In this document: piece after piece, positions 30,455 through 34,261 of the stretch | Layout: each line of letters opens with the position of its first letter | Position numbering within the stretch: position 1 is the first letter of the stretch | Notes under the pieces: generated by a model | Told to the model about the DNA's origin: nothing | The model's input: the letters and a program-made list of their open reading frames with translations, nothing else | Databases searched by the model: none | Translations under genes and position numbers: made by a program | NCBI GenBank assembly: GCA_025934955.1 | Contig: JAICWE010000001.1 | Span: 62,001 to 126,000 of the forward strand | Length of the DNA stretch: 64,000 bases | Source: Gemmatimonadales bacterium | GTDB taxonomy: Bacteria > Gemmatimonadota > Gemmatimonadetes > Gemmatimonadales > GWC2-71-9 | Direction of reading: 5' to 3'

Positions 30455-31746
30455 CGCTCGGCTTCTCCACCGACCGGCCGGATTCCTGGCAGGCATGCAG
30501 CGCCTGCGGCAACGAGACCATCATCACCGACCCGCGCCCGCGCTGCGGCAACTGCGGCGGGCTGCTCGAGGTGCATCACCGCGCACCCGATCTCACCCGC
30601 GACGAAGTGCTGCGGCGCTTCACCGAACGCCGCGGCGGGCGGGGCGCGGCCGCGGCGAGCGGCGTCTGGCGCTTTCAGGAGATGGTGCTGCCCGGCGTCA
30701 GCGACATCGTGTCGCATCCCGAAGGCAACACGCCGCTGCTCCGCCGCGCGGCGGTGGAGCGGTGGAGCGGCGTGCCGGGTCTCGCGCTCAAGCACGAGGG
30801 CTACAATCCGACCGGCTCCTTCAAGGACCGCGGCATGACGGTGGGCGTGACGCAGGCGCGGCGGATCGGCGCGCGCGCGGTGGGGTGCGCGTCCACCGGC
30901 AACACCGCGGCATCGCTCGCGGCGTACGCGGCCCAGGCGGAGATTCCCGCGCTCGTGCTGGTGCCGGCGGAGGGCGTCGCGCTGGGGAAGCTGGCGCAGT
31001 CGCTCGCGTACGGCGCGCGCACGCTCCTGGTGCGGGGCGACTTCGACGACTGCCTGCGGCTGGTCGAGGAAGCGAGCCGCGAGCTCGGCGTCTACCTGCT
31101 CAACTCGATCAACCCGTTCCGCATCGAGGGACAGAAGACGATCGTGCTGGAGCTGCTGCAGCAGCTCGGGTGGGAAGTGCCCGACTGGATCGTGCTGCCG
31201 GCGGGCAATCTCGGCAACACCTCGGCGTTCGGGAAGGCGCTGCACGAGGCGGAGCGCTGGGGACTGATCGACCGGCAGCCGCGGCTCGCCGCGGTGCAGG
31301 CCGCCGGGGCCGCGCCGTTCGCGACCAGCTTTGCCGAACAGTTCCGGCAGCGGCGGAAGGTCAAGGCCGAAACGGTCGCGACGGCGATCCGGATCGGCGA
31401 TCCGGCGTCATGGGATCGCGCCGTGCGCGCCATCGTGGAGACCGACGGCGTCGTGCTCGCCGTGAGCGACGACGAGATCCTGGAGGCGAAAGCGGCGGTG
31501 GACGCGGCGGGGGTCGGCTGCGAGCCGGCGAGCGCGGCGAGCGTCGCGGGCGCGCGACGGCTGGCGCGGGAGGGAGCGATTCAGCCCGGGCAGAGCGTGG
31601 TGGCGATCCTCACCGGCCACGTGCTCAAGGATCCCGGCATTCTGCTGGAGTACCACCGTGAGCGGCAACCGTCGCCGCCGGGCGCCAATCGGCCGATCGA
31701 GATCGACGCCCGGCTCTCCGAGGTGGAGCGCGTCCTCAAGGCCTGA
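30451..31746 (+). CDS. thrC: Threonine synthase ThrC
   Basis: A 431-residue PLP enzyme that makes threonine from O-phosphohomoserine. The N-terminus carries a small zinc ribbon (Cys16, Cys19, Cys32, Cys35) ahead of the catalytic fold. The PLP lysine is Lys125 in PTGSFKDRG; CASTGNTAASLAAYAA and LPAGNLGNTSAF form the phosphate and substrate loops. It is of the shorter class with a zinc-ribbon extension found in many bacteria and archaea. The GTG start overlaps the thrB stop. It ends six bases from the convergent peroxiredoxin gene. Confidence 0.95.
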   Translation: MTLGFSTDRPDSWQACSACGNETIITDPRPRCGNCGGLLEVHHRAPDLTRDEVLRRFTERRGGRGAAAASGVWRFQEMVLPGVSDIVSHPEGNTPLLRRAAVERWSGVPGLALKHEGYNPTGSFKDRGMTVGVTQARRIGARAVGCASTGNTAASLAAYAAQAEIPALVLVPAEGVALGKLAQSLAYGARTLLVRGDFDDCLRLVEEASRELGVYLLNSINPFRIEGQKTIVLELLQQLGWEVPDWIVLPAGNLGNTSAFGKALHEAERWGLIDRQPRLAAVQAAGAAPFATSFAEQFRQRRKVKAETVATAIRIGDPASWDRAVRAIVETDGVVLAVSDDEILEAKAAVDAAGVGCEPASAASVAGARRLAREGAIQPGQSVVAILTGHVLKDPGILLEYHRERQPSPPGANRPIEIDARLSEVERVLKA

Positions 31747-31752
31747 GGCGGC

Positions 31753-32316
31753 TCACTCGTGCGGCTCCTTCCGCACCGTGCGCGCCTGCTGCACGGCGGA
31801 GGCGAGCTCGGTGTACGCCGTCGGGTCGATTTCGCGGAATTCCCCCGAGTAGGTGATCGTGCCGTCGGGCGCAATGACGAACACGGTCCGGTTGTCCACG
31901 CCGTACTTGGTCGCGAACGCGCCGTACTGCCGGCCGAGCACGCCGCCCGAGTCGCTGAGGAAGGTGAACGGATAGCTCCGGTCCTTGGCCCAGCTCGCGA
32001 GCTCCGGCGCCGAATCGGTGCTCACGGCAAGCAGCGTCACGCCCTTCCCGCCGTTGAAGACTTTCGCGTACTGATCACGGTACGCGTCCATTTGGATGGT
32101 TCAGCCCTTGGTTCGCGCCTTGAAGAAGAACGCAAGGACGACCGTCTGGCCGCGAAAGTCGTGCAGGTGGACCGCCTTGCCCACGCCGCCGCGCGTCGCG
32201 GAGACGAGCGCGAAGTCGGGCGCCCTGGTGCCGGGCGGGAGCGGCGCCGGGTCCTGCGCCCGCGCGGGGAGCGCGGCGCCGGCCAGAAGCGCCGCGGCGA
32301 CTGCCATGGATCGCAT
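31753..32316 (-). CDS. Selenocysteine-containing peroxiredoxin (TGA recoded as Sec), exported
   Basis: Read through one in-frame TGA at 32101-32103, this is a complete 187-residue thioredoxin-fold peroxidase. A signal peptide covers about 1-25 (LLAGAALPARAQ). APDFALVSATRGGVG, then DFRGQTVVLAFFFKARTKG, leads to the TGA at codon 72, followed by TIQMDAYRDQYAKVF, LLAVSTDSAPE, FLSDSGGVLG and TVFVIAPDGTI. The TGA falls exactly where BCP/AhpC-type peroxiredoxins have the peroxidatic Cys (T-x-x-C). No Cys exists elsewhere, so a Sec enzyme with no resolving Cys is implied. A hairpin fitting a bacterial SECIS follows the TGA. Start: ATG at 32316 with GAGGA nine bases ahead. The alternative, a Cys-to-stop mutation (TGC/TGT to TGA), cannot be excluded, but both halves look intact. 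Confidence 0.85.
32065..32086 (-). promoter_or_regulatory. Candidate bacterial SECIS hairpin
   Basis: On the minus strand, 14 bases after the TGA at 32101-32103, CGCGTAC pairs with GTACGCG (7 bp) around the loop CGTGATCA. A G among the first two loop bases, followed by T, and a loop about 21 bases from the TGA are the features described for bacterial SECIS elements. The hairpin lies within the coding sequence, as expected in bacteria. Confidence 0.7.
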
Positions 32317-32344
32317 GCGGAATGTCCTCGAGTGAGGGTCTCCA

Positions 32345-32350
32345 AACATA
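32345..32350 (-). promoter_or_regulatory. Candidate -10 element of the selenoprotein gene
   Basis: TATGTT on the minus strand, 28 bases before the start codon, followed by TGG. It lies directly after the hairpin that ends the upstream gene. Confidence 0.4.
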
Positions 32351-32354
32351 CATC

Positions 32355-32374
32355 GCGGCGCTGCTCAGCGCCGC
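32355..32374 (-). terminator. Hairpin over the stop codon of the dehydrogenase-like gene
   Basis: GCGGCGCTG/CAGCGCCGC, a 9-bp perfect stem with a two-base loop. It overlaps the stop codon at 32365-32367. No T run follows, so termination efficiency is uncertain. Confidence 0.45.
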
Positions 32375-33699
32375 GTCACCCGCCAGATGGTGCCGTTGCG
32401 GTCGGCCGAGATGTAGAGGGTGCCGTCGGGGGCCACCGCGACGCCGCTCGCGCGAAGCGCCGTCGTGGTCGTTCCGGTGGCGAAGGTATTCCACGCCGTC
32501 GGCTTCCCGTCGGCGAAGCTGATGAACGCCACCTGATAGCCGCCCGGCGGGAGCGGCGCGCGATTCCACGAGCCGTGCAGCGCGACGAACGCGCCGCCGC
32601 GGAACGCAGCGCCGAACTGGTCGCCCGGGTAGAACGCGAGCGCGAGCGGCGCGTAGTGCGCCGGCAGCACGATCGCGGGAGCCTTCCTGGCGGCGCATTC
32701 GCCGACGGTCTTGCCATCGCCGCCGTATTCGGGCGCGAGCACCTTCTGCTTGAGCCCGGTGTCGTAGTAGCAGTAGGGCCAGCCGAGATCGTCGCCGCGG
32801 TTGAGCTGGGCCACTTCCTCACCCGGGTTCTCGGCGCTCCGCTCGGCGCTGAAGCCCCAGTTGTCGGCGAGCTGGTCGCGGCCGTTCACCGCGACCCAGA
32901 GCTCGTCGGTGCCGGGTCGGATCGCGAGCGCCTCCGCATTCCGCGCGCCGGTGGCGAAGCGCTTTCCGTCGGCGAACGTCTGCCCGGCGCGATCGGCCGC
33001 AAAGGTCCAGATGCCGGCGCGATGCGCCAGCTCGGTACAAGGCCGCCGGCCCTTCGAGCCGGCCTTGCGATCGTGCTCCTGACAGCTGTTGGTGGCGGAG
33101 CCGACGTTGACGTACATGGTGTTGCCGACGAACGCGAGACTCTTCGCGGTGTGGTTGCCGTCGGCGGGAAGATCCTTCACCACCGTTTCCATGTCCGACT
33201 CCGGCTCCAGCTTTCCCGGCGTGAGTTTCCAGCGCACGATGCGATCGTCCAGCGCATAGTAGATGTAGTCGCCGTGGAGCTTCACGTCGTTGCCGCCGCC
33301 GGGCCCGAACGCCGCGTGCTCGTCCGGCTTGCCGTCGCCGTTGCTGTCGCGGAAGGCGAGCACGCCGCCGGTGCCGCTCCCGTCGCCTCGCCCCTCGAAG
33401 GAGCTGCCACCGCTCAGCGCCGCGTAGAGATCGCCGTTGGGCGCGACCACGAGCTGGCGCACCGGACCAAGGCTCTTCCCCACGACGACGGCGCAGAACC
33501 CGTCGGGCAGCTTGAGTCCGCCGTTGCCCTCGTCGCACGCGATGCCGGTGGCGCCGGCGGGCCGCCGCTGCGGCGGCGGGGTGGTCTGCGCCGCGGCGGA
33601 TGCGGCCGCGGAGAGTGCGGCGAAGGCGACGCACGCCGTCGGGCCGAGCGCACGAGCGAGCGGCGCGAGCGCGATGGCGCGGCTGCGCGGGAGCGTCAT
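32365..33699 (-). CDS. Secreted sorbosone/glucose dehydrogenase-like beta-propeller
   Basis: A 444-residue exported protein with a signal peptide (cleavage near ASAAAQ). The body is a six-bladed propeller like soluble PQQ-dependent sugar (sorbosone/glucose) dehydrogenases: LPDGFCAVVVG, VRQLVVAPNGDLYAA, FRDSNGDGKPDEH, GNHTAKSLAFVGNTMYVNVG, RNAEALAIRPGTDELWVAVNGRDQ, LHGSWNRAPLPPGGYQVAF and GVAVAPDGTLYISADRNGTIWRV. It probably oxidises a sugar in the periplasm, although the cofactor is not proven by sequence alone. The ATG at 33699 has GGAGG seven bases ahead; an open frame reaching 33837 is only the promoter region. The promoter is flanked by a phased repeat array. Confidence 0.85.
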   Translation of the reverse strand: MTLPRSRAIALAPLARALGPTACVAFAALSAAASAAAQTTPPPQRRPAGATGIACDEGNGGLKLPDGFCAVVVGKSLGPVRQLVVAPNGDLYAALSGGSSFEGRGDGSGTGGVLAFRDSNGDGKPDEHAAFGPGGGNDVKLHGDYIYYALDDRIVRWKLTPGKLEPESDMETVVKDLPADGNHTAKSLAFVGNTMYVNVGSATNSCQEHDRKAGSKGRRPCTELAHRAGIWTFAADRAGQTFADGKRFATGARNAEALAIRPGTDELWVAVNGRDQLADNWGFSAERSAENPGEEVAQLNRGDDLGWPYCYYDTGLKQKVLAPEYGGDGKTVGECAARKAPAIVLPAHYAPLALAFYPGDQFGAAFRGGAFVALHGSWNRAPLPPGGYQVAFISFADGKPTAWNTFATGTTTTALRASGVAVAPDGTLYISADRNGTIWRVTRR

Positions 33700-33919: not shown

Positions 33920-34261
33920 ATGGCCACGAAGAAGAAGACCGCGAAGAAGTCCGCCAAGAGGCCCGCCGCACGGAAGACGACCAAGAAGGCCGCGAAGAAG
34001 ACCGCCAAGAAGCGCACCCCGAACGCCGCGTTCATGAAGCCGATGACGCCGAGCCCCCAGCTCGCCGCGGTCGTGGGCTCGAGCCCGATGCCGCGGACTG
34101 AAGTCACCAAGAAGCTGTGGGCGTACATCAAGCGGAAGGGCCTGCAGGATCCGAAGCAGCGCCGCATGATCAACGCGGACGAGAACCTCCGCCCGATCTT
34201 CAAGAAGGACCAGGTCTCGATGTTCGACATGACCAAGCTGGTGAACAAGCACCTCAGCTAG
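33920..34261 (+). CDS. SWIB domain protein with histone H1-like lysine tail
   Basis: A 113-residue protein in two parts. Residues 1-34 are almost entirely Lys, Ala, Thr and Arg ([19 protein letters not shown]...), resembling a histone H1 C-terminal tail. Residues 37-112 form a SWIB/MDM2 domain: [52 protein letters not shown] and [14 protein letters not shown]. Similar fusions are known in Chlamydia and scattered soil bacteria and are thought to bind DNA in the nucleoid; the specific role is unproven. GGGAG lies nine bases ahead of the ATG. A hairpin terminator follows, so it is transcribed alone. Confidence 0.92.

Follow-up and report, generated by a model that had tools for sequence, protein, structure and literature searches.

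A reading frame for a peroxiredoxin-like protein is interrupted by a TGA in a 64,000-nucleotide stretch of Gemmatimonadales bacterium DNA (GCA_025934955.1, contig JAICWE010000001.1, positions 62,001 to 126,000; hereafter the window), and a hairpin lies just behind this TGA. We asked if the TGA could be a selenocysteine (Sec) codon, and if so, whether the hairpin could be the bacterial SECIS (bSECIS) that directs its decoding. In bacteria, SelB together with GTP and Sec-tRNA(Sec) binds a SECIS just behind the UGA and brings Sec to the ribosome (PMC1794560). The features of the locus, in window positions, are:

31753-32316, minus strand: predicted selenoprotein peroxiredoxin gene, 187 aa, Sec at residue 72 (Pfam AhpC-TSA, 8e-29)
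32329-32326, minus strand: GAGG Shine-Dalgarno-like run, 9 nt before the ATG
32349, minus strand: alternative upstream in-frame ATG, which would yield 198 aa
32316-32314, minus strand: likely start ATG (GAGG upstream; homologues with similar N termini)
32254-32316, minus strand: predicted signal peptide at the N terminus (hydrophobic stretch followed by A-x-A-Q; extent approximate)
32103-32101, minus strand: in-frame UGA, candidate Sec codon at the peroxidatic position of T-x-x-(U/C)
32100-32087, minus strand: 14-nt spacer ACCATCCAAATGGA between the TGA and the stem, ungapped in all homologues listed
32086-32065, minus strand: putative bSECIS hairpin, 7-bp stem CGCGTAC/GTACGCG with 8-nt apical loop CGUGAUCA
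32086-32080, minus strand: 5' arm of the stem, CGCGTAC
32079-32072, minus strand: apical loop CGTGATCA (codons CGT GAT CA), with G2-U3 as the presumed SelB contact
32071-32065, minus strand: 3' arm of the stem, GTACGCG
31755-31753, minus strand: ordinary stop TGA of the peroxiredoxin gene

Geometry of the hairpin behind the UGA

Translation with TGA read as U gives one continuous protein that matches PF00578 (AhpC-TSA) with 100.5 bits (8e-29), and the TGA falls at the peroxidatic residue of a T-x-x-U motif. Read directly, the minus strand runs GGC-TGA-ACCATCCAAATGGA-CGCGTAC-CGTGATCA-GTACGCG and continues with AAAG. A preliminary description of this DNA had proposed a 7-bp stem beginning 14 bases after the TGA, with G and then T as the second and third loop bases, and the sequence bears this out in full: seven Watson-Crick pairs, a 14-nt spacer, and G and U at loop positions 2 and 3. 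The same hairpin results when the surrounding RNA is folded, and the stability of the 56-nt stretch exceeds that of shuffled sequences only modestly, at -15.7 kcal/mol versus -10.8 kcal/mol (z = -1.81; 10/200 shuffles equally good). A longer structure with extra pairs around the UGA, suggested by single-sequence folding, was discarded, as the alignment backs the 7 pairs only.

We compared the hairpin with the limits of the published consensus model for bSECIS (PMC13188914, Fig. 2A), in which the apical loop has 3-9 nt and the upper stem 4-16 bp, a G stands within the first two loop positions and is usually followed by G or U, the UGA-to-apical-loop distance is 16-37 nt, and the minimum free energy (MFE) is at most -7.5 kcal/mol (PMC13188914). 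Stem (7 bp), loop size (8 nt, near the upper limit), the G2 and U3 of CGUGAUCA, spacing (21 nt from UGA to loop, constant across all listed TGA homologues) and energy (-9.4 kcal/mol for the 22-nt hairpin) all lie inside these limits. The MFE limit is passed by 99 % of the homologous genes with TGA versus 10 % of those with a Cys codon at this position. Pairing between the N1 and N2 loop positions was absent, since CGUGA has C1 and A5 there, which form no pair; the model describes such a pair as "mostly" present and not obligatory (PMC13188914). The earlier proposal that distance and loop match the bacterial SECIS pattern thus holds within the published limits, with only the non-obligatory N1-N2 pair missing. 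Like E. coli fdhF-type elements, the hairpin lies within coding sequence directly after the UGA, and it differs from bSECIS in general by its nearly invariant sequence across the phylum. Its sequence is presumably unlike those of the E. coli SECIS elements.

Counting both strands, the window has 1203 TGA trinucleotides; this one alone is followed at exactly +14 by a perfect hairpin of 7 bp and 8 nt, but 30 of the 1203 have some SECIS-like perfect stem of at least 7 bp behind them. Since such stems arise by chance in the GC-rich DNA of the window, the hairpin taken alone counts for little, and it is conservation among the compared genes that lifts the element above chance. A scan of positions 31000-33500 against Rfam returned no match at an E-value limit of 5, a result that says little on bacterial SECIS.

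Conservation and codon constraint among homologues

Homologues were found in 261 of the 395 genomes covered by a scan of the phylum, and about 130 homologous genes were fetched and aligned at the Sec codon. The codon at this position was TGA in 113 homologues and Cys (TGC/TGT) in 20; these counts leave out a distant Cys protein (L011) and two short, distant matches that have GAG here. Addition of 80 loci from GTDB genomes, the best 80 and nearly all under Gemmatimonadota names, gave 130 distinct TGA genes and 25 Cys genes. Plasmid records yielded distant matches only (<60 % identity). The preliminary description had named loss of the stem from homologues that keep the TGA as the outcome that would count against it. 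This did not occur: the hairpin is kept in all 113 TGA genes from the scan and, with the GTDB loci included, in all 130 distinct TGA genes, and spacer, stem and loop are ungapped in every one. The same TGA and hairpin were also present on contigs labelled ANGP1 (L173) and Acidobacteria gp6 (L193), reflecting either transfer or mis-binned Gemmatimonadota metagenome contigs.

A covariance model built from the family, window gene included, scored the hairpin at 87.5 bits in the window (next best, 8.4 bits), and in the genome from which the window comes it matched only the peroxiredoxin gene, which implies that other selenoprotein genes of this genome lack the sequence of this element.

The preliminary description had also called for compensatory changes in the stem, and these were found at its outermost pair but not at the six inner pairs. 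In the 130 TGA genes the outermost pair is GC in 39, CG in 34, TA in 33, AA in 18 and other in 6, so that it is Watson-Crick in 106/130 and the stem has 6 bp in those relatives with A-A. The protein does not dictate the 3' base of this pair, because it is the third base of a four-fold degenerate GCN Ala codon. Changes on both sides of the pair numbered 55 in 104 sequences, compared with 20.2 ± 6.1 in shuffles (score 0.128 versus 0.024), and sliding the partner position abolished the signal. The same pairing in Cys genes was at the level of shuffles (67.1 versus 66.1 %). Likewise, RNAalifold run on the 104 TGA sequences with no structure supplied returned exactly this 7-bp hairpin, and on 20 Cys sequences it returned no pair.

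In a tree for which the Sec codon and the hairpin codons were masked, the type of the outermost pair changed ~20 times, its 5' base 19 times and its 3' base 17 times, indicating that most of these changes were joint; the Sec/Cys state changed at least 8 times. Tree-independent pairs on supported branches were few (3 to 6) and did not reach the 0.05 level: in the C-G comparison with 6 independent pairs, about 5 agreed and none opposed (median p = 0.06), a sub-test that is not significant alone.

The six inner pairs are identical in the TGA genes, save one departure at the second pair; being nearly invariant, they draw their support not from covariation but from the constancy of synonymous codons and from the difference between TGA and Cys genes. 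Within the hairpin the codons GCG (129/129) and TAC (130/130, at both of its occurrences) are fixed in TGA genes, and CAG is fixed wherever the amino acid is kept. The loop codon CGT is used in 127/129 TGA genes, the remaining two having CGG, against a 10 % background in the same genes and 3/25 in Cys genes; GAT is used in 127/130, against a 28 % background and 8/24 in Cys genes. At a control column, the Asp at +29 in the same genes, usage was free (GAC 67, GAT 63), as it was for codons of other conserved columns. Binomial p-values for these codons overstate independence because the sequences are related; comparison with the Cys genes provides a better argument. The segment A-Y-R-D-Q-Y-A is conserved and its codons are fixed beyond what the protein needs, in TGA genes only, which upholds the earlier proposal that the hairpin is under two constraints. 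The hairpin is thus selected at the RNA level, and only in TGA genes.

Three sets of tandem paralogues (L112, L130 and L136) consist of one Sec and one Cys copy, with the SECIS in the Sec copy only. In another homologue (L082, genome G006), a Cys codon is followed by CGCGTAC/GTACGAG, in which 6/7 pairs are kept, and the genome retains tRNA-Sec; this hairpin looks like a SECIS remnant after a Sec-to-Cys change.

Selenocysteine machinery and alternative explanations

The genome of the window (3.05 Mb in 110 contigs, 88 % complete) contains a tRNA-Sec (67 bits; confirmed by ARAGORN, anticodon tca), SelA (516 bits), SelB (321.7 bits over joined stretches, C-terminal stretch included) and a Sec-type SelD (373 bits) that itself has an in-frame TGA. 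In this SelD gene (L153, C52:23158-24078), the UGA lies in HGAGUACK and is followed by a strong hairpin of quite different sequence. A second AhpC-like frame of the same genome (L012:1553-1993, on C4) has an in-frame TGA at TPGU and downstream sequence that folds; it had no Pfam match at 0.001, and may be a second Sec peroxiredoxin.

Across the phylum scan, tRNA-Sec was detected in 279/395 genomes. Among genomes with a TGA copy, 102 of 112 had it, versus 3 of 16 for which only Cys copies were fetched (Fisher p = 2e-9). In two of these three (G092 and G374) one more match was left unfetched, and a Sec copy may be present there as well; the third is G006, the bearer of the remnant-like hairpin described above. 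Most of the ten TGA-copy genomes without a tRNA-Sec match are fragmented, and fragmentation or stricter filters could explain the missing tRNA, except in G157 (L054), a single 4.1-Mb contig that has the Sec gene and hairpin with no tRNA-Sec match at 1e-9.

Consistent with these patterns, we consider it nearly certain that the hairpin is a bacterial SECIS within the coding sequence of a Sec peroxiredoxin, where it would bind SelB and direct Sec insertion. SelB carrying Sec-tRNA(Sec) would bind the apical loop (G2-U3) and the stem when the ribosome arrives at the UGA, which would then be decoded as Sec rather than recognised by RF2, giving a 187-residue protein of peroxiredoxin fold with Sec as its peroxidatic residue.

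Three other explanations were weighed. The element could be a conserved RNA that does not act by binding SelB, its presumed ligand, and instead causes readthrough or pausing, or serves as a DNA-binding palindrome; its near-invariant sequence is what one would expect of any protein-binding site. However, its occurrence goes with the Sec codon and tRNA-Sec rather than with the gene, and Cys copies do not keep it even when these stand in tandem with a Sec copy, and its position and loop fall within the bSECIS limits; we regard such a role as very improbable. Still less credible is that the TGA stems from faulty sequencing or is the stop of a pseudogene, and that the hairpin simply follows from amino-acid conservation in DNA of high GC content. 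The window genome is indeed a fragmented assembly, and chance SECIS-like stems do follow other TGAs of the window (30/1203), but the reading frame is intact on either side of the TGA, codons are fixed beyond protein need in TGA genes only (CGT in 127/129 versus 3/25), and TGA occupies the same codon in 113 independent homologues, which we count as refuting this explanation. Reassignment of UGA to a standard amino acid such as Trp, which would accommodate an in-frame UGA within a conserved protein and make a SECIS unneeded, has a negligible probability, as the TGA aligns with Cys and not Trp, TGA is the terminal stop in 38/113 TGA genes, 14/20 Cys genes and the window gene too, and the genome has complete Sec machinery.

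A predicted exported Sec peroxiredoxin

With the bSECIS reading preferred, we considered the protein that would be produced. T69, residue 72 (C/U) and R143 are invariant across 33 homologues, in which A20 and Q21 are nearly invariant. Cysteine is absent from the whole 187-aa protein and, beyond residue 30, from 112/113 Sec homologues, and in the Cys homologues the active-site cysteine is their sole one (20/20). This cysteine pattern suggests a protein of the 1-Sec/1-Cys type. The AlphaFold2 model, built from the 33 homologues, had a mean pLDDT of 91.4, and its best PDB matches by Foldseek were peroxiredoxins, including 1-Cys AhpE. Family profile, T-x-x-C/U motif, conserved Arg and thioredoxin-like fold all place the protein in the AhpC/TSA family. 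The N-terminal run resembles a signal peptide, which suggests that the protein is exported, and the product is probably an exported 1-Sec peroxidase, both activity and export being predicted from sequence.

PrxU of Eubacterium acidaminophilum is a Sec peroxiredoxin of family PF00578 with a TxxU motif (Soehling 2001, cited in PMC13188914). The protein here shares the AhpC/TSA family and the Sec at T-x-x-U with PrxU, and differs in its lack of cysteine, its likely signal peptide and its Gemmatimonadota host. PrxU was also the best NCBIfam match, at 65.7 bits; since the cut-off of the PrxU equivalog NF040737 is 270 bits, we take the protein to be a member of the superfamily and not of the PrxU subfamily. 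AhpE of Mycobacterium tuberculosis (1-Cys; PDB 1xvw, 4x0x) matches the protein by profile (9e-18) and the model by fold (TMt ~0.8), and both proteins use one active-site residue, although AhpE has Cys where the protein here has Sec and identity is only ~29 %. AhpE of M. tuberculosis is cytoplasmic.

SelB-directed Sec insertion, SECIS elements and Sec peroxiredoxins are already known: the TxxU peroxiredoxin is included in a list of prokaryotic selenoproteins (PMC13188914), and a 2016 survey reported it in 78 organisms (PMC5029168). Gemmatimonadota are not mentioned in the main texts of these two papers, and titles and abstracts in the open literature gave no relevant report for Gemmatimonadota with selenoprotein, selenocysteine or peroxiredoxin, which is weak evidence. 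A seemingly exported 1-Sec peroxiredoxin that is spread across the Gemmatimonadota and has a nearly invariant SECIS is apparently new, as we met no report of one in the open papers searched. The wider proposal, that Gemmatimonadota have a phylum-wide exported peroxidase with Sec as its sole redox-active residue and a nearly invariant SECIS, repeatedly swapped to Cys in lineages without Sec decoding, strikes us as somewhat favoured. On the bSECIS reading, the apparent premature stop is a Sec codon, at which automatic annotation would split the gene in two. Moreover, the 130 Sec and 25 Cys genes form a large natural set, with the Cys genes as matched controls, for reading the constraint on a bacterial SECIS RNA one codon at a time, and the presence of tRNA-Sec in 279/395 genomes points to Sec use in most sampled Gemmatimonadota, which is undescribed in the open literature searched.

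Lastly, no stable operon was seen around the gene: of 109 flanks, many of them short, only 12 share the glucose/sorbosone dehydrogenase gene that lies next to it in the window, and 7 have thrC. Elsewhere in the window, positions 33920-34261 (plus strand) encode a protein that has a lysine-rich N terminus and a SWIB/MDM2 domain (Pfam 5e-30), which is more familiar in eukaryotes.
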